Shown here: positions 6,279 through 55,621 of the stretch, one piece after another | Position numbering within the stretch: the stretch's first letter is position 1 | Layout of the letters: each line of letters starts with the position of its first letter | Source: Gluconacetobacter tumulisoli | Lineage (GTDB): Bacteria > Pseudomonadota > Alphaproteobacteria > Acetobacterales > Acetobacteraceae | NCBI RefSeq assembly: GCF_014174155.1 | Contig: NZ_JABEQM010000003.1 | Location: 248,001-312,000, forward strand | Direction of reading: 5' to 3' | DNA: 64,000 nt | Translations under genes and position numbers: made by a program | Notes under the pieces: model-generated | Databases searched by the model: none | Told to the model about the DNA's origin: nothing | The model's input: the letters and a program-made list of their open reading frames with translations, nothing else

Positions 6279-7721
6279 GTGCCCCACTATCCGGATACCC
6301 TGCTGTTCATCGACGGACAGTGGACAGCGTCGGGGGACAACCGCTTCATCGACGTGGTGAACCCCGCGACCGAACAGGTGATCGGGCGTGTCGCCCATGC
6401 GGGCCAGCCGGAACTGGCGGCGGCGGCGGCGGCGGCCGAGCGCGGTTTTGCGGTCTGGGGCCGCATGTCGGTGTTCGACCGCTACAAGATCATGCGCGAG
6501 GCCGCGAACCTGCTGCGCGCCCGCGTCGACGCCATCGCCCCGATCATGACCATGGAGCAGGGCAAGCCGCTGGCCGAGGCGCGGGTCGAACTGCTGGCTG
6601 CCGCGGACACCATCGACTGGCTGGCCGAGGAAGGCCGCCGCGCCTATGGCCGCCTGATCCCGTCGCGCACCACGGGCGTGACCCAGGCGGTGATCCGCAC
6701 GCCGGTCGGCCCAGTCGCCGCGTTCTCGCCGTGGAATTTCCCGGTCAACCAGGTGGTGCGCAAGGTCGGCGCGGCCCTGGCGACCGGCTGCTCCATCATC
6801 GTCAAGGCGGCCGAGGAAACGCCGGCCTCGCCGGCCGAACTGATCCGCGCTTTCGCCGACGCGGGCGTCCCCCCGGGGGTGATCGGTCTGGTCTACGGCA
6901 CGCCGTCCGAGATTTCCGAAACGCTGATCGCCCATCCCGCCATCCGCAAGGTGACGTTCACCGGGTCGACCGCCGTGGGCAAGATGCTGGCGGCGCTGGC
7001 GGGATCGCACATGAAGCGTGCGACCATGGAACTGGGCGGCCACGGGCCGGCGATTGTCTGCGCCGATGCCGATGTCGACCAGGCGGCGACCACGCTGGCG
7101 GCGGCCAAATTCCGCAATGCCGGGCAGGTCTGCGTCTCGCCGACACGTTTTCTGGTCGAACGCCCGGTCTTCGGCCGTTTCGTCGAACGGTTTGCGACGC
7201 TGGCCGCCGCCCACAAGGTCGGTGATGGTCTGGAACCCGGCACAACCATGGGGCCCATGGCCAATGTCCGGCGCATCGACGCCATGGAATCGCTGATCGC
7301 CGACGCCACGACCAAGGGAGCGGAAATCGTCACTGGCGGCCATCGCGTCGGCAATTCGGGCTATTTCTTCGCGCCGACCGTCCTCTCCGGCATGACGGAC
7401 GGGATGCGGATCATGAACGAGGAGCCGTTCGGCCCGGTGGCGCTGATGTGCCCGTTCGACACGCTGGACGACGTGGTGACCGAGGCGAACCGGCTGCCGT
7501 ACGGGCTGGCCGCCTATGCCTTCACCGGGTCGGGCCGCACGGCGGCGCGTCTGCGCGACGAGGTGCGGACCGGCATGCTGACGGTCAACCATCTGGGCCT
7601 GGCCTTCCCGGAGGTCCCGTTCGGCGGAATCGGCGATTCCGGATACGGGTCGGAAGGCGGCAGCGAGGCGCTGGAAGCCTATCTGGACACGCGTTTCTTC
7701 ACGATGCGCGAATATGCATGA
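6279..7721 (+). CDS. NAD(P)-dependent aldehyde (succinate-semialdehyde-type) dehydrogenase
   Basis: Cytosolic aldehyde dehydrogenase of 480 aa. It has the family's NFPVNQVVRK nucleotide-binding strand, FTGSTAVGKML, the ELGGHGPAIV motif with the general-base Glu, and the catalytic Cys in NAGQVCVSPTRF. The overall pattern is closest to GabD-like succinate-semialdehyde dehydrogenases. GTG at 6279 is chosen over the longer frame because GGAGA lies 7 nt upstream and the protein then starts PHYPDTLLFIDGQW, the usual N-terminus. The last 8 nt overlap the nitroreductase, so the two are co-transcribed. The exact aldehyde is not determined. Confidence 0.85.
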   Translation: MPHYPDTLLFIDGQWTASGDNRFIDVVNPATEQVIGRVAHAGQPELAAAAAAAERGFAVWGRMSVFDRYKIMREAANLLRARVDAIAPIMTMEQGKPLAEARVELLAAADTIDWLAEEGRRAYGRLIPSRTTGVTQAVIRTPVGPVAAFSPWNFPVNQVVRKVGAALATGCSIIVKAAEETPASPAELIRAFADAGVPPGVIGLVYGTPSEISETLIAHPAIRKVTFTGSTAVGKMLAALAGSHMKRATMELGGHGPAIVCADADVDQAATTLAAAKFRNAGQVCVSPTRFLVERPVFGRFVERFATLAAAHKVGDGLEPGTTMGPMANVRRIDAMESLIADATTKGAEIVTGGHRVGNSGYFFAPTVLSGMTDGMRIMNEEPFGPVALMCPFDTLDDVVTEANRLPYGLAAYAFTGSGRTAARLRDEVRTGMLTVNHLGLAFPEVPFGGIGDSGYGSEGGSEALEAYLDTRFFTMREYA

Positions 7722-8553
7722 GCCCGGCATGGCCGATGATGTGATCGCCGACCTGTGGCGGGCGCGTTACCGGACCGACCCGCCGGCCGGCGGACGGTCC
7801 GGGGACGACGTCCTGCGCCAGCTGCTGTCGCATCGCTCGGTCCGCGCCTATCGTCCCGACCCGCTGCCCGACGGCGCGCTGGAGGCCGCGGTGGCGGCCG
7901 CGCAATCGGCCTCGACCTCCTCCAACCTCCAGGCCTGGAGCGTGGTGGCGGTCGAGGATCCGGCCCGGCGTGCCCGTCTGGCGGCGCTGGCCGGCGGCCA
8001 GGCGCATATCACGCAGGCGCCCCTGTTCCTGGCCTGGCTGGTGGATCTGTCGCGCCTGTCGCGGCTGGGGGTGGCCCACGCCCATGCCACCGACGGGCTG
8101 GATTATCTGGAAACGTTCGTCGTGGGGGTCGTGGACGCGGCCCTGGCGGCGCAGAACGCGGCCGCGACCTTCGAATCGCAGGGGCTGGGGATCGTCTATA
8201 TCGGCGGCCTGCGCAACCATCCCGAACAGGTGGCCCGGGAACTGGAACTGCCGCAGCGGTCCATGGCCGTGTTCGGCATGTGCGTCGGCCATCCCGATTC
8301 CGACCGGCCGGCCGCCATCAAGCCGCGCCTGCCGCAATCGGTGGTCCTGCATCGCGAACGCTACGGCATGGTGGACGAGGCCGCGGGCATCGCGGCCTAT
8401 GACCAAAGCGACGCCGCGTTCCAGCGCGAACAGGGGCTGGCGCCGCGTGCCTGGTCCGACGCCGTGGTCCGCCGGGTGGCCGGGCCGGAATCGCTCAGCG
8501 GCCGCGACCGGCTGCGCGATGCGCTGGCGGCGCTGGGCTTTCCGCTGCGCTGA
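7714..8553 (+). CDS. Nitroreductase-family flavoprotein (NfsA-like)
   Basis: FMN-dependent NAD(P)H oxidoreductase of 279 aa. The FMN-binding start SHRSVRAYRPDPLP, the region QSASTSSNLQAWSVV and the second FMN segment GLGIVYIGGLRNHPEQVA are those of the NfsA/FRP branch. These enzymes reduce nitroaromatics, quinones or flavins; the physiological substrate is unknown. The start ATG overlaps the preceding dehydrogenase by 8 nt; a second in-frame ATG at 7729 is possible. The gene ends a two-gene unit followed by 165 bp without any recognisable feature before ilvE. Confidence 0.85.
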   Translation: MHEPGMADDVIADLWRARYRTDPPAGGRSGDDVLRQLLSHRSVRAYRPDPLPDGALEAAVAAAQSASTSSNLQAWSVVAVEDPARRARLAALAGGQAHITQAPLFLAWLVDLSRLSRLGVAHAHATDGLDYLETFVVGVVDAALAAQNAAATFESQGLGIVYIGGLRNHPEQVARELELPQRSMAVFGMCVGHPDSDRPAAIKPRLPQSVVLHRERYGMVDEAAGIAAYDQSDAAFQREQGLAPRAWSDAVVRRVAGPESLSGRDRLRDALAALGFPLR

Positions 8554-47083: not shown

Positions 47084-48382
47084 ATGCGCATATCCTCTCC
47101 CGCGGGCAGGGATGTTCCCGCCCATCCCCGCTACGTCTTCGTCGTATTGGCGGTCACGTTCGTCGCGTTGCTGATGTCGGCGGCGCTGCGGGCCACGCCC
47201 GGTGTGCTGATGATGCCGTTGCAGCATGCGCTGGGCTGGACGCGCGAGGATATCTCGTTTTCGGCGGCGGTCGGGATTTTCCTGTACGGGCTGATGGGGC
47301 CGTTCTCGGCGGCGCTGATGCAGGGGGTCGGCATCCGGCGGACCCTGCTGGGCGCGCTGGCGGTGATGGCGGCCGCCACGGGCGCGTCGCTGTGGATGAC
47401 CCGGCCGTGGCAGTTCTTTGCCACCTGGGGTGTGCTGACCGGATTGGGGACCGGGTCGGTCGCGATGGTTCTGGGGGCGACGGTGGTCAATCGCTGGTTC
47501 GTCGCGCGCCGGGGTCTGATGATGGGCATCCTGGCGGCCAGCACGGCCACCGGTTCGCTGCTGTTCCTGCCGCTGCTGGCGGCACTGGCCCAGAACCGGG
47601 GATGGCAGGCCGTGGTGATGGCGGTCTGCGCCGCATGCGTGGTGCTGATCCCGCTGGTGGCGGCGCTGCTGCCGGAACGGCCGGCCGATCGCGGCCTGGT
47701 GCCCTACGGCGCCGGGCCGGGCTACGTCCCGCCGGCGCCGGCACATGGCCATCCGGTGGCGGTGGCGCTGGGCACCCTGGCATGGGCGGCGGGGCGCCTG
47801 GATTTCTGGCTGCTGTTCCTGACGTTCTTCGTCTGCGGCTTCACCACCAACGGGCTGATCGGCACGCATTTCATCGCCATCTGCGCCGATCACGGCATCG
47901 CCGAGGTCCCGGCGGCGGGGCTGCTGGCCACCATGGGGCTGTTCGACCTGGTGGGCACGACCCTGTCGGGCTGGCTGACCGACCGGTTCGATGCGCGCCG
48001 GCTGCTGTGCGTTTATTACGGGCTGCGCGGGGTCTCGCTGATCTTCCTGCCATTCTGCGATTTTTCACCGACCGCCCTGATGGTGTTCGGCGTGTTCTAC
48101 GGTCTGGATTGGATTGCTACGGTGCCCCCGACATTGCGCCTGACCAACGCGGCATTCGGCGAACGCCTGGCCCCCATCGTGTTCGGCTGGGTCTTCTTCG
48201 GCCACCAGGTCGGTGCCGCCTGCGCCGCCTATATTGCCGGGATGCTGCGGGAACGGACGGGAACCTATGAACAGATGCTGATCATGGCCGGGCTGACGGG
48301 CCTGGTCGCGGCGCTGCTGGCGATGGGGATCGGCAGGCGCGTTCCCGCCGGCGGGGGCGAGCCGGCCTCGGCTGCGACCTGA
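47084..48382 (+). CDS. MFS transporter
   Basis: Major facilitator of 432 aa and 12 helices, of the OFA/oxalate-formate or YnfM-like group: helix 2 region EDISFSAAVGIFLYGLMGPF and loop 2-3 with IRRTLLGALAV, plus LTDRFDARRLL before helix 9. ATG at 47084. Probably regulated by the divergent TetR; it is followed by the AbgB-like amidohydrolase after 113 bp and could transport that enzyme's substrate, though this is inference. Confidence 0.85.
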   Translation: MRISSPAGRDVPAHPRYVFVVLAVTFVALLMSAALRATPGVLMMPLQHALGWTREDISFSAAVGIFLYGLMGPFSAALMQGVGIRRTLLGALAVMAAATGASLWMTRPWQFFATWGVLTGLGTGSVAMVLGATVVNRWFVARRGLMMGILAASTATGSLLFLPLLAALAQNRGWQAVVMAVCAACVVLIPLVAALLPERPADRGLVPYGAGPGYVPPAPAHGHPVAVALGTLAWAAGRLDFWLLFLTFFVCGFTTNGLIGTHFIAICADHGIAEVPAAGLLATMGLFDLVGTTLSGWLTDRFDARRLLCVYYGLRGVSLIFLPFCDFSPTALMVFGVFYGLDWIATVPPTLRLTNAAFGERLAPIVFGWVFFGHQVGAACAAYIAGMLRERTGTYEQMLIMAGLTGLVAALLAMGIGRRVPAGGGEPASAAT

Positions 48383-48495: not shown

Positions 48496-49929
48496 ATGCG
48501 CAACAGCAATGAAATATGGGATTTCGTCGAGGCACGGAAGGACCCGCTTATCGCGCTCAGCGATGCGGTCTGGGCGGTCCCGGAACTGAATTTCGGCGAA
48601 TTCCGGTCGGTCGCCCTGCATGGCGCGACGCTGGAGAATGAGGGCTTCCGCGTGACCCGCGACGTCGCCGGCCTGCCGACGGCGATCATGGGCGAGGCTG
48701 GGGAGGGCGGTCCGGTCATCGCCATCCTGGGCGAATATGACGCCCTGCCGGGCCTGAGCCAGCAGGCCGGCATCACCGAACACCGTCCCTTGCCGGGCGA
48801 CGGAAACGGCCATGCGTGCGGGCATAATCTGCTGGGCTCCGCATCGCTGCTGGCCGCGACGGCGGTCAAGAACTGGCTGGCCGCCACCGGGACGCCGGGC
48901 CGCGTCCGCTATTACGGCTGCCCGGCCGAGGAGGGTGGCGCGGGCAAGGGATTCATGGTCCGCGCCGGGGTGTTCGATGATGTCGACGCCGCGATTTCCT
49001 GGCATCCGTTCTGTTTCGCCACCATCTTTCCGCCGGCGGCGCTGGCCAATGTGCGGCTGGATTTCACCTTCACCGGCCGTGCCGCACATGCCGCCGCCGC
49101 CCCGCACCTGGGCCGGTCGGCGCTGGATGCGGCGGAGCTGATGAATATCGGCGTCAATTACCTGCGCGAACATATGCTGCCGACTTCACGCATCCATTAT
49201 GCCTATCAGGATGCGGGCGGTGTCGCGCCGAACGTGGTGCAGGCCCGAACCGTCATCCGATATACCGTTCGGGCAGCGGAACTGGAGGACATGCTGGCGC
49301 TGGCCGAGCGCGTGCGCCGGGTGGCCGAGGGGGCCGCGATGATGACGGAAACCACTGTCACCTGCGCGGTTATCAGCGGCATGGCGAATTTGCTGGGCAA
49401 TCCGCCGCTGGAGGCCGCGATGCAGGCCAACCTCGAACGTCTGGGGCCGCCGCCCTTCGATGCTGCCGACCAGGCCTTCGCGCGCGAGATGCAGGCGACC
49501 TTTACCGAACAGGACATCGCCTCGGCCTTCCGGCAGGTGGGCCTGCCGGTCGATCGCGATACGGCGTTGTGCGACATGATCCTGCCCTATCCGACGGCGG
49601 CCGGCCCGGTGATCCTGGGATCGACCGATGTCGGCGACGTCAGTTGGACGGTGCCGACCGTTCAGGCGCTGGGGGCGACCTGCGCCATCGGTACGGCACT
49701 TCATTCCTGGCAGATGACGGCGCAGGGCACGTCCGCGCTGGCCCACAAGGGCATGGTCCATGTCGCCAAGATCATGGCAGCGACCGCGACCGACCTGTTG
49801 TCGGACCCGGCCCTGCTGGAGCGTGCGAAGCAGGACCATGCCGCGAAGCTGCGGCAGCGGCCGTATGTCAGCCCGATCCCGCCGGAGGTCCAGCCCCCGG
49901 TCCTTTACCCGGATCAGGCCGCCGAGTGA
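48496..49929 (+). CDS. M20-family amidohydrolase (AbgB-like)
   Basis: Metal-dependent peptidase/amidohydrolase of 477 aa resembling the aminobenzoyl-glutamate hydrolase subunit B. The metal-ligand segment is NGHACGHNLLGSASLLA, with ILGEYDALPGLSQQAGI before it and YGCPAEEGGAGKGFMV following; the dimerisation part is ANVRLDFTFTGRAAHAAAAP. Substrates in this family are N-acyl or N-aroyl amino acids. A 243-bp intergenic gap follows, holding only a terminator for the convergent TonB receptor gene. Confidence 0.9.
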   Translation: MRNSNEIWDFVEARKDPLIALSDAVWAVPELNFGEFRSVALHGATLENEGFRVTRDVAGLPTAIMGEAGEGGPVIAILGEYDALPGLSQQAGITEHRPLPGDGNGHACGHNLLGSASLLAATAVKNWLAATGTPGRVRYYGCPAEEGGAGKGFMVRAGVFDDVDAAISWHPFCFATIFPPAALANVRLDFTFTGRAAHAAAAPHLGRSALDAAELMNIGVNYLREHMLPTSRIHYAYQDAGGVAPNVVQARTVIRYTVRAAELEDMLALAERVRRVAEGAAMMTETTVTCAVISGMANLLGNPPLEAAMQANLERLGPPPFDAADQAFAREMQATFTEQDIASAFRQVGLPVDRDTALCDMILPYPTAAGPVILGSTDVGDVSWTVPTVQALGATCAIGTALHSWQMTAQGTSALAHKGMVHVAKIMAATATDLLSDPALLERAKQDHAAKLRQRPYVSPIPPEVQPPVLYPDQAAE

Positions 49930-50172: not shown

Positions 50173-52740
50173 TTAGAAGGAGGCGTTGATACGGCCGTAG
50201 TAATAGCCGCCCGTGATGGGGATGCTCGAGGAGTTCTGGTCGTACTGGTTGGCGCCCAGATAGTTGGTGTAGGGCGTGAGCATGCGCGGGCGCTGGTTGA
50301 AGAGGTTGTTGCCGCCCACAGCAAAATGCCAGTGCCGGTTGAGGCGATAGCCGATTTCCAGGTCGGTCATCCAGACCGGCGTGTTCTTGAACTGCTGGAA
50401 GCACGTGATGGAATACTGCATCGGCGAGCCGTCCGGGCAGGTCAGGTTGGCCGGCGTCTGGTCCTGGAACTGCATCATCGACGTGGTTTCGCCGTACCGG
50501 GTCTCGCGGATATTCACGTCCCAGTTCCCGACGGTGTAGTACGCGTTCAGGATGATCTTGCTGCGCGGCGAACCCGTGGTCAGATACCCGATCGTCTGGT
50601 CGTTCATATAGGAACTGCCATCCGAGGCATTGTTGATGTGCGTCATGCGCGTACGGTTGAGGTTCAGCGCCAGGCTGGTGTCCAGGGTTCCGTACTGGTT
50701 CAGATGGAAGATATAATCCCCCATGATGTCCAGGCCCTGCGTGCGGGTGCTGCCGACATTGGCGAAATAGTTGGCCGACACGTCGGCGGAAGTGATGCCC
50801 GCGGGCAGGGTCGCGCCCGTCATCGCGATCGCGTCGATCGCCTCCGAACCGTTCGCGGTGCCGCCGCCGAAAATACGGTCACGGATATTGATCTGATACA
50901 CGTCAGCCGAAATATGGAAGCCGTCCACCGGTTCGAGGACGAACCCGCCTTCGACGCTGGTCGAACGTTCCGGCTTCAGCGGCTGTGCGCCCAGGGCCTT
51001 GGCGGCGGCGCCTTCGGTGGCCAGCAGCCCGGTGGCCCCGGTCGGCGACACGTTCAACGCGCTGAAATGCTCTTCCGGCAGGGTGGGCGCGCGGAAGCCG
51101 TTGCTGATGGTGGCGCGGATCGCGATGCGCTTCGTGATGTCGTAGCGGGTCGAGACCTTGCCGTTCTCGGTGTTGCCGAAATCGGTGTAATGCTCGAACC
51201 GGCCGGCGAAATCGAGGTCCCAGTGCTTCAGGGGATGGAAGTCGCCGTCCAGATAGCCCGCCCAGACGTCGCGGCCCCACTTGCCCGAGTTTTCCGGCAT
51301 CAGACCCGCATAACCCTGGGTGCCGCCGTACATGTACGAGGCCGGGTTGCCGGGAAGGATGGTATATTGCTCGAGCCGGTGTTCCGCGCCGAATGCCAGC
51401 GTCATCGGCACGACATGACCGATGTTGAAATTACGCCGCATGTCCAGATTGTTGGTCCACTGCATCAGCGTGTAGGATTCGGCATTCGCCTTGTTCGGCG
51501 ACCAGCCCTCCTGCGCGATCATATTCGGGTTGGCAGTGTTCTTGTTGCCGATCGAATCGTCGTCCGCGCCGTAGGTGGTGCTCAGATCCCAGCCGAAGCC
51601 GAAGAAATTGTCGCCCTTGAGGCCGAGGGTCGCCGCATAATCATTCTCGTCGATCGTCTCGAGCGGCGAGAAACCGGCCGGCCAGATGGAGGGCGCCACG
51701 TTCGGCAGGCGGTAATTCTCATACGCTTCGGAATGACGATGGGCGTAGGTGATCAGGCCGTAGCCCTGCACGCCTTCGGTCAGCGTCTTGCCGAATTCGA
51801 TGCTCAGATTTTCGCGCGTTTCCTCGGGCGTGCTCATGATCTTGTTGGAATCATGAGGCACCACGTACCCCTTGTACTCCGGGTTCCCCTGGATCGTACG
51901 CACGTCGGCCGAGTACGGGACCATGTGGTCGGCGTGCATCTGCTGCCCGCTGATATGGACATAGCCGTCGTCGCCGAAGCTGAAGCCGCCGTCGATGCCG
52001 ACCTGTTCCTGCCAGCCATCGCCGTTATAGGCGTTCGCGCCGGTCTGGCCGCTGATGTTGAGGCCGTGGGCGGTCTTCTTGAGAATGATGTTGACCACGC
52101 CGGCGATCGCATCCGAACCATACATGGCCGCCGCGCCATCACGCAGGACCTCGATATGGTCGATCGCATTGGCCGGGATCATGTTCAGATCGACCGGGGT
52201 GGAGCCCTGCTGCGGTCCCTGGTCGGCATAGATGTTGGCGGTGGTGTGGCGGCGCTTGCCGTCGACGAGCACCAGCACCTCGTTCGGGTTCAGGCCGCGC
52301 ATGCGGATCGAGGAGGTCAGCGCCCCCGCGTCGGCGCCCATGGCCTGGGTCGTGATGGACGGATCGGTGCGCACGATGGCGTCGGCCAGGTTGACCTGGC
52401 CCGAGCGCATCAGGGTCTGGGCGGTCAGGATGCTGATGGGCGCCGTGGAATCGCGGGCGCGGCGATGGAACGCGTGCGTGCCGGTGACGATCACGGCCTC
52501 GCCCGCGTCGGCCGGCGGCGCGCGATAAGCGGGGACGACCGGGGCAACTGCCGGAACGACGGCAGGACTGGCGGGCGCGGCCATGGTGGCCGCTGGGGCC
52601 TTCTGTGCGACGGCGGCGGCGGGCTTCGACGCATGGCGCGTGGTCTTGTGGGGGACCGTTGCCGCGCGGGCGCCCGCGGTGCCGAGGCAACCGATGGCCG
52701 AAATCATGGTTGCGGCAACAAGGCGTCGTCGTAAGCTCAT
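50173..52740 (-). CDS. TonB-dependent outer-membrane receptor
   Basis: Outer-membrane receptor of 855 aa. Signal peptide MSLRRRLVAATMISAIGC... ending near GARA; a long Ala/Pro-rich segment to about residue 80; plug domain (VIVTGTHAFHRRARDSTAP, IRMRGLNPNEVLVLVDGKR, VLRDGAAAMYGSDAIAGVVNI) to about 210; then the beta barrel ending YYYGRINASF with the terminal Phe needed for BAM. The plug is of the iron/vitamin B12-like type, but the substrate is not apparent. Divergent from the amine oxidase module, so it may import its substrate across the outer membrane. ATG at 52740 opens the signal peptide. Confidence 0.92.
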   Translation of the reverse strand: MSLRRRLVAATMISAIGCLGTAGARAATVPHKTTRHASKPAAAVAQKAPAATMAAPASPAVVPAVAPVVPAYRAPPADAGEAVIVTGTHAFHRRARDSTAPISILTAQTLMRSGQVNLADAIVRTDPSITTQAMGADAGALTSSIRMRGLNPNEVLVLVDGKRRHTTANIYADQGPQQGSTPVDLNMIPANAIDHIEVLRDGAAAMYGSDAIAGVVNIILKKTAHGLNISGQTGANAYNGDGWQEQVGIDGGFSFGDDGYVHISGQQMHADHMVPYSADVRTIQGNPEYKGYVVPHDSNKIMSTPEETRENLSIEFGKTLTEGVQGYGLITYAHRHSEAYENYRLPNVAPSIWPAGFSPLETIDENDYAATLGLKGDNFFGFGWDLSTTYGADDDSIGNKNTANPNMIAQEGWSPNKANAESYTLMQWTNNLDMRRNFNIGHVVPMTLAFGAEHRLEQYTILPGNPASYMYGGTQGYAGLMPENSGKWGRDVWAGYLDGDFHPLKHWDLDFAGRFEHYTDFGNTENGKVSTRYDITKRIAIRATISNGFRAPTLPEEHFSALNVSPTGATGLLATEGAAAKALGAQPLKPERSTSVEGGFVLEPVDGFHISADVYQINIRDRIFGGGTANGSEAIDAIAMTGATLPAGITSADVSANYFANVGSTRTQGLDIMGDYIFHLNQYGTLDTSLALNLNRTRMTHINNASDGSSYMNDQTIGYLTTGSPRSKIILNAYYTVGNWDVNIRETRYGETTSMMQFQDQTPANLTCPDGSPMQYSITCFQQFKNTPVWMTDLEIGYRLNRHWHFAVGGNNLFNQRPRMLTPYTNYLGANQYDQNSSSIPITGGYYYGRINASF

Positions 52741-53083
52741 ATAGATGACCCGTTCATGATTTGATAAAACCCTCGTAACCTTAGTTGGGTCGTAACGTTC
52801 CGGTAATAGACGAATTGGGGACCGTGACGCTTTCGTCTCGATCTGTTGCATTTTGATGACAGTAGGTGTGGTGGACCACCTGGGGACGGTTCTCCCGGAC
52901 GCAGATAGACGCAGATATATGATGGCCGTTCGGGCCATCGGGGGGCCGGCGGAATGGGCCGCGAGGGAAAAAACCATTACGATCCTGTGATCGGATGATT
53001 GCTCCGGCGCGACATCTCCCTGTAACTACCGTTCCTCTCGCACGGATCGCCATTCGACCTGCGTCACTTCATCCTGGGGAAGC
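52741..53083. promoter_or_regulatory. Divergent promoter region, receptor/amine oxidase
   Basis: This 343-bp stretch between the two divergent starts has no gene. It holds a tandem direct repeat GACGCAGATA at 52898 and 52908, a GTGGACCACCTGGGG segment, and AT-rich runs next to the receptor start. The promoters of both genes must lie here; no canonical sites stand out. Confidence 0.45.
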
Positions 53084-54688
53084 TTGATGACAAACGCTTT
53101 CCAGCGTCCGGCGGCCACGCGCCGCCAGATGCTGACCCGAATCGGTATCATGGGCGGCAGCGCGGCCCTCTATCAGGCGATGACCAGCCTCGGCCATGCG
53201 GCCGGCACCGATTTTCGCGGCGCGCCGGCCCTGACGGGGGCGAAGCGCGGCACGCGGGTGCTGGTGCTCGGCGCCGGCCTGGCCGGCATGCTGGCCGCCT
53301 ACGAACTGCGCAAGGCCGGCTATCAGGTCCGGATCCTCGAATTCCAGAATCGCAGCGGCGGCCGCAACATTTCGTTGCGCGGAGGCGACACGCTGACGGA
53401 ACTGGGCGGCGCCACCCAGAAGGTTCAGTTCGCCCCTGGCAACTACATCAATCCGGGTCCGTGGCGCATTCCCTATCACCACCAGGGATTGTTGCATTAT
53501 TGTCGCGAGTTCGGCGTGGAGCTGGAACCGTTCGTCGAGCTGAACCACAATTCGTGGTTGCATTCGTCGGACAATTTCGGCGGCAAGCCGGTCCGCTATC
53601 GCGACTATGCCAGCGACTTCATGGGTTACACGGCGGAGCTGCTGTCCAAGGCCATCAACCAGCACAGGCTGGATGACGCCGTCTCGGCCGACGAGCGCGC
53701 GCATGTCGCGGCGGCGATGCGCGGCTGGGCCGGGCTGGAGGCCGACGGTGCGTACCGCAAGGGCATCGTCAGTTCGCTGCGCCGGGGTTTCGCCAAGCCG
53801 CAGGGCGGCGGCGTCGACGGCGCGCCGATCCCCTCGGACCTGTTCGCCCGCGACGAGGTGATGCGGTCCGGCCTGTGGCAATGGCTGGCGTTCCATGAAC
53901 GGCTGGACATGCAGACGACCATGTTCCAGCCCGTGGGGGGCATGGACCAGATCGGCAAGGGCTTCACCCGTCAGGTCCATGACCTGATCACCCTGAACTG
54001 CAAGGTATCGTCCATCCACCAGGACGATCATGGCGTTCAGGTCACGTATAACGACATGGCCAATGGCGGCGCCGTCCGTCAGGAAAGCGCGGATTATTGC
54101 GTCTGCACCATTCCCCTGTCGGTGCTGTCGCAGCTGGATATCCAGGTCAGCGGCCCGCTGAAGGCCGCGATCGCCGCCGTGCCCTATGCCTCGTCCGTCA
54201 AGCTGGGCATGGAGTTCAACCGCCGGTTCTGGGAGGAAGACGACCAGATCTATGGCGGCATCAGCTTCACCGACCAGCCGATCAGCCAGATCTCCTATCC
54301 CAGCCACGGCTATTTCTCGCGGGGGCCGGCGGTCCTACTGGGCGGCTACATGTTCGGTCCCGCCGCCTACGATTTCGCGGGCATGACTCCGGCCGAGCGA
54401 ATCGAGCACGGCCTGACGCAGGGGTCGGTGATCCATCCGAACTATCGCAAGGAATTCCGCAACGGCGTGGCCGTGTCCTGGAGCCGGATGCCCTGGACGC
54501 TGGGATGCTGCTCGATGTGGACCGAGCAGAGCCGCAAGACGCACTACAAGACGTTGTGCGCTGTGGACAACCGCATCGTCCTGGCCGGCGAACATGCCTC
54601 TTATATCGGCTGCTGGCAGGAAGGTGCGATCCTGTCCTCGCTCGACGCCGTCACCCGTCTGCACAAACGCGCGCTGGGAGCTGCCTGA
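53084..54688 (+). CDS. Tat-exported flavin monoamine oxidase/dehydrogenase
   Basis: FAD-dependent amine oxidase-family protein (534 aa). The N-terminus has a twin-arginine signal (TRRQMLTRIGIMGGSAALYQ), then the FAD fold VLVLGAGLAGMLAAYELRKAG and RSGGRNISLRGG; the C-terminal FAD segment is VLAGEHASYIGCWQEGAI. The aromatic-rich stretch MPWTLGCCSMWTEQ lines the active site region. A cytochrome c starts inside its stop codon (TGATG) and a periplasmic RidA follows, so it probably acts as a dehydrogenase in the periplasm handing electrons to that cytochrome rather than to O2. It resembles L-amino acid/nicotine oxidase-type enzymes; the substrate is not known. Confidence 0.88.
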   Translation: MMTNAFQRPAATRRQMLTRIGIMGGSAALYQAMTSLGHAAGTDFRGAPALTGAKRGTRVLVLGAGLAGMLAAYELRKAGYQVRILEFQNRSGGRNISLRGGDTLTELGGATQKVQFAPGNYINPGPWRIPYHHQGLLHYCREFGVELEPFVELNHNSWLHSSDNFGGKPVRYRDYASDFMGYTAELLSKAINQHRLDDAVSADERAHVAAAMRGWAGLEADGAYRKGIVSSLRRGFAKPQGGGVDGAPIPSDLFARDEVMRSGLWQWLAFHERLDMQTTMFQPVGGMDQIGKGFTRQVHDLITLNCKVSSIHQDDHGVQVTYNDMANGGAVRQESADYCVCTIPLSVLSQLDIQVSGPLKAAIAAVPYASSVKLGMEFNRRFWEEDDQIYGGISFTDQPISQISYPSHGYFSRGPAVLLGGYMFGPAAYDFAGMTPAERIEHGLTQGSVIHPNYRKEFRNGVAVSWSRMPWTLGCCSMWTEQSRKTHYKTLCAVDNRIVLAGEHASYIGCWQEGAILSSLDAVTRLHKRALGAA

Positions 54689-55107
54689 TGCGTCCCGCTT
54701 TCCTTCTGCTCGCCGGACTCGTCGCCGGCACGACCCTTGCCACGCAGGCCCGCGCGGACAGCGCCAGCGCCGTCGCCGGCCATCTGCAGCCGCTTGCCGA
54801 CGGGGCGGCAGTCTACCAGCACGTCTGCCAGGGCTGCCACATGCCCGACGGCCGTGGCGCGATGGGATCGGGGGCGCGCTTTCCCGCCCTGGCCGGCAAC
54901 GCCAAGCTGGCCAGCCCGGATTATCCTGCCTACGTCATCCTGAACGGGTTCGGCGGCATGCCGTCCTTCGCCGGGCTGCTGACGGATGCACAGGTAGCGG
55001 ACGTGGTGAACCATATCCGCACTCATTTCGGCAATCACTACACCGACACCCTCAAGCCCGAGGACGTCGCCGCGCAGCGTCCGACCATCACCCCGGAACA
55101 GGAATAA
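54688..55107 (+). CDS. Periplasmic mono-haem cytochrome c
   Basis: Class I cytochrome c (139 aa) with signal peptide MRPAFLLLAGLVAGTTLA... ending near ARADS. Haem is bound by C47-Q-G-C-H51, with the axial Met at 91 (GFGGMPSFAG). The start ATG overlaps the amine oxidase TGA. It is the likely electron acceptor of that flavoenzyme and would pass electrons on to a terminal oxidase. Confidence 0.92.
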   Translation: MRPAFLLLAGLVAGTTLATQARADSASAVAGHLQPLADGAAVYQHVCQGCHMPDGRGAMGSGARFPALAGNAKLASPDYPAYVILNGFGGMPSFAGLLTDAQVADVVNHIRTHFGNHYTDTLKPEDVAAQRPTITPEQE

Positions 55108-55111
55108 GAAC

Positions 55112-55621
55112 ATGACGACGTTGAAGACCGTACGCATGACCGCCCTGGCGGTGCTTCTGGGCACGGCGGCGTTGTCGTCGGCCCGGGCCGAAGGGGTCGT
55201 GCGCCATTCCGATCCGGCGAGCCATTTTCCCATCGCCACGGCGATCGAGGTGCCCCCCGGGGCCACCACCATCTATCTGAGCGGCATGGGCGCCCCCCCG
55301 GCCGACAAGTCGGCCAAGCCCAATACGCTGGCCGCCTATGGCGACACCGAAACCCAGGTCCGTGCGTCGCTGGTGCGCATCCAGGGCGAACTGGCGAAGC
55401 TGAAACTGACCCTGGGCGACGTCGTGCAGATGCATATCTACATGGTGGCCGATCCCAAGCTGGGGAAGATCGATTTCGCGGGCATGATGAAGGCCTATAC
55501 CCAGTTCTTCGGCACGCCGTCGCAGCCCAACCTGCCGACCCGCTCGGCGTTCGAGGTCGCGCACCTGGCGAACCCGGGCTGGCTTGTGGAAATCGAGGTT
55601 ACGGCGGTTCGCACCCCGTAA
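55112..55621 (+). CDS. Periplasmic RidA-family protein
   Basis: RidA/YjgF protein (169 aa) with a clear signal peptide (MTTLKTVRMTALAVLLGTAA, cleavage near SSARA), unlike the cytosolic RidA at 25710. The catalytic Arg is retained in NLPTRSAFEVAHLA, and the barrel start is TIYLSGMGAPPAD. It begins 4 bp after the cytochrome, so the three genes form one operon. Its expected role is to hydrolyse the imine or enamine formed by the amine oxidase into a carbonyl compound and ammonia outside the cytoplasm. Confidence 0.92.
   Translation: MTTLKTVRMTALAVLLGTAALSSARAEGVVRHSDPASHFPIATAIEVPPGATTIYLSGMGAPPADKSAKPNTLAAYGDTETQVRASLVRIQGELAKLKLTLGDVVQMHIYMVADPKLGKIDFAGMMKAYTQFFGTPSQPNLPTRSAFEVAHLANPGWLVEIEVTAVRTP

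Follow-up and report, generated by a model that had tools for sequence, protein, structure and literature searches.

The lao–cccA–ridA locus encodes an exported flavoenzyme, a cytochrome c and a RidA

What does the lao–cccA–ridA locus of Gluconacetobacter tumulisoli do, and to which acceptor does its flavoenzyme pass electrons? The locus lies in a 64,000-nucleotide stretch of DNA (the window), which corresponds to positions 248001–312000 of contig 3 (G000:C3) of a 3.96-Mb genome. We propose that the product of the operon is probably a periplasmic L-amino acid:cytochrome c oxidoreductase that comes with an imine deaminase of its own. What was observed here is the gene order, the leaders (by eye), the homology and fold of the proteins, their conserved residues, the recurrence of the genes in other genomes and the presence of an oxidase; for the sister species Gluconacetobacter diazotrophicus, the available text of PMC5053998 reports that lao is required for the production of indole-3-acetic acid (IAA) and that the transcripts of the three genes fall together.

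The first gene, lao (53087..54688, plus strand), codes for a 533-residue flavoprotein of the L-amino acid oxidase (LAAO) type according to Pfam, PDB, AlphaFold and Foldseek, and is the ortholog of GDI2456 of G. diazotrophicus PAL5. It starts with an ATG at position 53087, with an in-frame TTG at 53084. A motif search detected a twin-arginine translocation (Tat) leader (TRRQML...), which occupies positions 53087..53200 of the plus strand, with a cleavage site near GHA-AG that was placed by eye, its end being approximate. The second gene, cccA (54688..55107, plus strand; GDI2455 ortholog), codes for a mono-haem cytochrome c (CytC) of 139 residues with a single CxxCH motif (CQGCH) and, by eye, a Sec-type leader. 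The third, ridA (55112..55621, plus strand; GDI2454 ortholog), codes for a predicted Rid3-type imine deaminase of 169 residues with an N-terminal leader of ∼26 residues that ends in ARA-E. The TGA of lao and the ATG of cccA overlap by 1 base, and 4 bases separate cccA from ridA. Pfam assigned LAO to Amino_oxidase (E = 3.7e-53), CccA to Cytochrome_CBB3 (1.3e-14) and RidA to Ribonuc_L-PSP (2.1e-15), while none of the three passed an NCBIfam cut-off among the matches listed (for LAO, 25 of 35 families). Leaders were called by eye, from motifs and with a hydrophobicity script. The open reading frames, Pfam matches and leaders agree and confirm what an earlier note on this DNA had claimed, namely that lao, cccA and ridA form one tight operon for an exported flavoenzyme, a cytochrome c and a RidA with its own leader.

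LAO resembles L-amino acid oxidases

The same note had called the flavoenzyme an amine dehydrogenase. This reading is compatible with the Pfam Amino_oxidase family, which covers both amine and amino acid enzymes, and with a gene layout that NicA2 and Pnao have in common with LAO (PMC12224317). Sequence, fold and conserved residues indicate L-amino acids instead. LAO shares 97% identity with the LAOs of Gluconacetobacter johannae and G. azotocaptans. A PDB sequence search returned the Rhodococcus opacus LAAO first (E = 2.7e-85), followed by other L-amino acid oxidases among the best 60 of 104 matches. An AlphaFold model built from 76 family rows reached a predicted local distance difference test (pLDDT) score of 93.4 and superseded a mediocre model from 17 rows (pLDDT 71.3). 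Superposed on R. opacus LAAO (2JAE/2JB1), it gave a template modelling (TM) score of 0.94 on the target and a root-mean-square deviation of 1.7 over 481 columns at 36% identity, and the predicted fold is that of a full-length LAAO. Amino acid oxidases occupied Foldseek ranks 1–44, and a monoamine oxidase appeared first at rank 45, among the 50 matches listed.

Across an alignment of 76 homologs, Arg127, Lys372 and Trp510 never vary and Tyr421 hardly does; the Arg, Lys and Tyr align with residues of known LAAOs in the PDB search alignments. We take the Arg and Tyr to bind the amino acid carboxylate and the Lys to be the flavin-site residue. Because sequence, fold and conserved residues all match LAAOs, LAO most likely acts on L-amino acids and most likely belongs to the LAAO type, not to the amine dehydrogenases. 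An amine substrate was rejected on the Foldseek ranking and the conserved carboxylate-site residues and, with tryptophan left unmetabolised in lao mutants of PAL5 (PMC5053998), we regard an amine dehydrogenase as very improbable.

The adjacent cytochrome c is a clade trait

Conservation was assessed in 79 named loci (n = 79), drawn from the best 80 of 186 stretches that encode an LAO relative and thus constituting the most similar subset. An RR-type motif was found near the N-terminus of LAO in all 79 by motif search. In 77 of them a cytochrome c homolog follows LAO on the same strand within 600 bases, more often than expected by chance, and the adjacent frame has a single CxxCH in 76 of these 77 and two in L052. 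The cytochrome lies upstream of LAO in L103. A broader phylum sample of 398 genomes gave 31 LAO matches (E ≤ 1e-60) in 27 genomes, 28 of which are loci L120–L147. By hand count, a mono-haem CytC is present on the same strand within ∼2 kb in 18 of the 28 (upstream in L122), a di-haem cytochrome in three (L136, L137 and L141), and no CytC was seen within ∼1.5 kb in seven.

On a midpoint-rooted tree of 68 author-selected rows, a cytochrome accompanies LAO in 52 of the 53 rows of one well-supported clade versus none of the 15 rows of the other, for most of which the flanks extend ∼1.5 kb and for some less. By parsimony, two changes on this tree suffice to account for the presence of the cytochrome, and 14 are needed for RidA. 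We conclude that the adjacent cytochrome is a clade trait, and that LAO and CytC form a stable core while RidA comes and goes. The conservation of the trio in related genomes, expected earlier, thus holds for the LAO–CytC pair and only in part for RidA.

The available text of PMC12224317 (Akram et al., 2025) states that a Tat-exported flavin amine oxidase (FAO) next to a mono-haem CytC mostly marks a CytC-using dehydrogenase, and gives rate constants of 1e4–1e6 M-1 s-1 for the pairs of clades 2 and 3. The window pair has both gene features, a Tat signal and an adjacent exported mono-haem CytC. The likeness to the nicotine oxidoreductase/CycN pair proposed in the earlier note is supported by analogy: as in NicA2/Pnao–CycN, a Tat flavoenzyme of the same superfamily adjoins an exported mono-haem cytochrome c (PMC12224317). 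The difference is that the set of that study was found by BLAST from NicA2, whereas the window enzyme is of the LAAO type and its relatives often have an exported Rid3. The terms 'amino acid oxidase', 'RidA' and 'Gluconacetobacter' do not occur in the available text of PMC12224317, the last being a weak negative since that text lacks many species names.

These data also bear on an alternative in which LAO works in the periplasm as an L-amino acid oxidase that uses O2, with the cytochrome dealing with H2O2 or serving some other side function and RidA removing the imine. Tight linkage as a clade trait argues against it, as does the strong preference for CytC of the tested clade 2 and 3 FAOs with an adjacent CytC, except that of B. 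anthina, which by its Table 1 value also reacts well with O2 and may have both activities (PMC12224317). In its favour stand the B. anthina enzyme and PMC5053998, which describes LAO as an oxidase that releases H2O2.

Several loci deserve mention in their own right. In the distant LAO homologs L136, L137 and L141, the di-haem cytochrome replaces the mono-haem one, as in clade 1 of PMC12224317, three FAOs of which showed only a modest reaction in solution with their di-haem cytochromes. A second LAO–CytC pair without RidA occurs in some Gluconacetobacter and Acetobacter species (L078–L082, at 7572–8000, and L093–L095). Locus L092, on a contig labelled Acidobacteria, sits among Acetobacteraceae LAOs on the tree and is possibly mis-binned.

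RidA is a Rid3-type protein with a leader of its own

Ten Rid-family matches were found in the source genome. For nine of them, ∼3–24 residues precede the Pfam match, without an evident leader (starts chosen by us), and the RidA of the window is the only one of the ten with an evident leader. A leader was likewise seen, by eye and hydrophobicity script, at the picked start of 56 of 57 downstream-linked RidA proteins; the picked start of the remaining one, in L092, looks wrong. The best PDB matches of RidA are PFL1385 (9bkc) and PSPTO3006 (9bka), and Arg144, Glu160, Glu162 and Ile41 are each present in 94 of 94 Rid-bearing loci (L001 and L002 left out). The Rid3 signature consists of the catalytic Arg and Glu with the Tyr replaced by Ile (PMC4433059), and the window RidA carries it. 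PFL_1385 and PSPTO_3006, both assigned to Rid3, reduced semicarbazone formation from imines that were generated by an L-amino acid oxidase (PMC5619798). They are the best solved matches of the window protein and share its Arg, Glu and Tyr-to-Ile signature (PMC5619798, PMC4433059); they differ in having been assayed separately, with other enzymes, and the words 'periplasm' and 'signal' are absent from the available main text of PMC5619798. PSPTO_3006 is 84–85% identical to the Rid proteins adjoining LAO homologs in L142 and L144, so that an assayed Rid3 has close relatives paired with an LAO, although these two LAOs belong to the CytC-less clade.

RidA was found within 2 kb downstream of LAO in 57 of the 79 named loci, again beyond what chance would give, and on the LAO strand in 20 of the 28 phylum loci by hand count. 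Among the other 22 named loci, RidA lies upstream of LAO in L104 and ∼4.3 kb away on the other strand in L098, a weak RidA match lies ∼3.6 kb away on the other strand in L096, and the downstream flank is shorter than 1.5 kb in L086 and L102. A strict lao–cccA–ridA trio was ruled out by these 22 loci and by the number of changes on the tree.

The cluster is known in G. diazotrophicus PAL5

The earlier note had suggested a new respiratory amine-oxidation system, a claim that was overtaken by the literature: the operon was in print in 2016 (PMC5053998) and the rule on Tat-exported FAOs with CytC in 2025 (PMC12224317). The published cluster is lao–cccA–ridA (GDI2456–2454) of PAL5. Two independent Tn5 insertions in lao lowered indolic compounds by ∼95% and left no detectable IAA, and in the one mutant tested with tryptophan, transcripts of all three genes fell, those of cccA 17.6-fold and those of ridA 18-fold (PMC5053998). 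The authors put forward a periplasmic, Tat-exported LAAO assisted by cytochrome c and RidA. Earlier work cited there found that mutants in cytochrome c maturation (ccm) make 5% of the wild-type IAA, which also argues against an O2-using oxidase.

We identify L105 as the PAL5 lao locus because the six primers printed in PMC5053998 match it at 22/22, 22/22, 19/20, 20/20, 20/20 and 20/20 positions (123/124 bases in total); the same primers match the window at 21/22, 19/22, 17/20, 16/20, 18/20 and 17/20. The two clusters agree in their three genes and in gene order, with identities to the window proteins of 91% (LAO), 79% (CytC) and 75% (RidA). The upstream neighbours differ, being nuo-like genes (by eye) in PAL5 and a TonB receptor in the window. 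In the available text of PMC5053998, RidA is neither said to be exported nor assigned to Rid3, and there is no mention of a clade of cytochrome c dehydrogenases.

A possible electron exit

In the source genome and in PAL5 alike, an oxidase subunit II combines a CuA motif with a fused haem-c motif (caa3 type); both genomes also encode another subunit II, which lacks CuA, and a cytochrome c1. FixO of the cbb3 oxidase was absent from our searches of the source genome and PAL5, and a cbb3 oxidase was thus ruled out as the electron exit. Among 21 genomes of the same family with both LAO and CytC, a homolog of the caa3-type subunit II (E ≤ 1e-30) was found in 10, the CuA motif itself having been read only in the source genome, and another subunit II with a CuA motif was found in four more. 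No CuA-type subunit II was found in the other seven of the 21 (G001, G009, G030, G048, G056, G117 and G135), which rules out a caa3 oxidase as the universal exit and is more readily accommodated by an O2-using LAO.

Proposed mechanism

We envisage that LAO would be exported folded, with its flavin adenine dinucleotide, via Tat. It would act on tryptophan, and probably on other L-amino acids, and oxidise them to imino acids. The two electrons of the reduced flavin would then leave singly, each to one molecule of co-exported CccA, so that no H2O2 would be made, and CccA could be reoxidised by the CuA-bearing caa3-type cytochrome c oxidase of the source genome. In the same compartment, hydrolysis of the imino acid by the exported Rid3 would yield the keto acid and release ammonia. 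From tryptophan, the product would be indole-3-pyruvate, a precursor of the auxin IAA. A partial parallel is Chlamydomonas LAO1 with LAO2/RidA, an extracellular (periplasmic) LAAO with a RidA partner that also leads from tryptophan to indole-3-pyruvate and IAA; it differs in making hydrogen peroxide, and no cytochrome c partner is mentioned in the available text of PMC10805672.

The closest solved homologs of LAO are LAAOs that use O2, and that of R. opacus, the closest of all, is known as an oxidase of this kind. This is one of several points that weigh against electron transfer to CccA. We found no measured electron acceptor in the literature for any LAO of this branch, and the conserved flavin-site lysine does not discriminate between oxidases and dehydrogenases (PMC12224317). 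The authors of PMC5053998 state that complementation is still needed, and the separate roles of cccA and ridA in PAL5 cannot be told apart because the insertions lowered all three transcripts. To these must be added the seven genomes lacking a recognisable CuA subunit, the 22 loci in which RidA was not found within 2 kb downstream, and L096, the one locus of the 79 with no cytochrome in its available flanks. Weighing both sides, we consider an O2-using oxidase unlikely and continue to favour the cytochrome c-linked dehydrogenase.

The cluster and the principle of a Tat-exported FAO with CytC are already known, and the general mechanism is plausible. Relative to the literature that we found, three elements may be new: the LAO–CytC branch as a clade-wide cytochrome c lineage, the RidA of this branch as an exported Rid3, and the related TonB receptors that accompany it. 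With about even confidence, we extend the proposal to the whole group, which would form a further L-amino-acid-specific, cytochrome c-linked dehydrogenase lineage across Pseudomonadota, often with an exported Rid3 and, in Acetobacteraceae, with a TonB receptor. Its function would be periplasmic respiratory deamination, in which amino acids from outside would yield keto acids, ammonia and electrons but no H2O2, auxin being one output. If LAO does reduce cytochrome c, a whole group named L-amino acid oxidases would consist of respiratory dehydrogenases, and bacterial auxin production by the LAO route would be coupled to respiration. The low IAA of the G. diazotrophicus cytochrome c maturation mutants would be explained, and Rid3 proteins would gain a specific partner and an extracytoplasmic location.

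The divergent TonB receptor and other neighbours

Upstream of lao, a gene for a TonB-dependent receptor with Pfam plug and barrel domains runs divergently (50173..52740, minus strand), its likely start at 52740 (MSLRRRLVAATMISAIG...) having been chosen by eye. We regard it as an associated gene, not part of the core. The intergenic region (52741..53086, 346 bases) is expected to hold both promoters. Receptors 55–93% identical to that of the window were found no more than 1 kb upstream of LAO in at least 20 of the 79 named loci, seven divergent and 13 on the same strand; short flanks at some loci make this a minimum. Both LAO (E ≤ 1e-40) and the receptor (E ≤ 1e-100) occur in 17 of 150 genomes of the family, and in nine of the 17 the two lie within 2 kb of each other (hand count). 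The link to the receptor, which the earlier note could know from the window alone, is recurrent but not constant. In 59 of the 79 loci no receptor was seen within 1 kb, and a constant partnership was ruled out.

This recurrence raises the possibility that the locus is an iron uptake module, in which iron would be chelated by keto acids produced on the outer side of the inner membrane and the complex would be retrieved by the linked receptor, as proposed for Proteus amino acid deaminases. The PDB relatives of the receptor include the colicin I and ferric enterobactin receptors, though also BtuB (siderophore, colicin and B12 ligands), and a Fur box has been predicted upstream of a nuo–lao set in PAL5 (PMC9368920). 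For Proteus, keto acids have been termed non-classical siderophores, although that case is itself reported as inconclusive (PMC11026637). In the 346-base intergenic region of the window, the best match to a Fur box was 10 of 19 positions, a score reached by 915 of 1000 shuffles, so that a Fur-regulated module was ruled out for the window; the best matches elsewhere, scored without shuffles, were 10 of 19 in L105, 12 in L031, 11 in L032 and 10 in L034 and L040. With the many loci lacking a nearby receptor, we judge an iron uptake module quite improbable.

In L078–L082, a TonB receptor lies just upstream of the second LAO–CytC pair, on the same strand, and two tandem TonB receptors (72% identical to that of the window) adjoin LAO at G009:C8:26436-31908. 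Beyond the receptor, the window encodes a major facilitator superfamily transporter (47084-48382) and an M20-type amidohydrolase (48496-49929; TIGR01891 above cut-off). In seven further Gluconacetobacter loci (L034–L040) the amidohydrolase gene immediately precedes lao, and the enzyme might release amino acids from conjugates.

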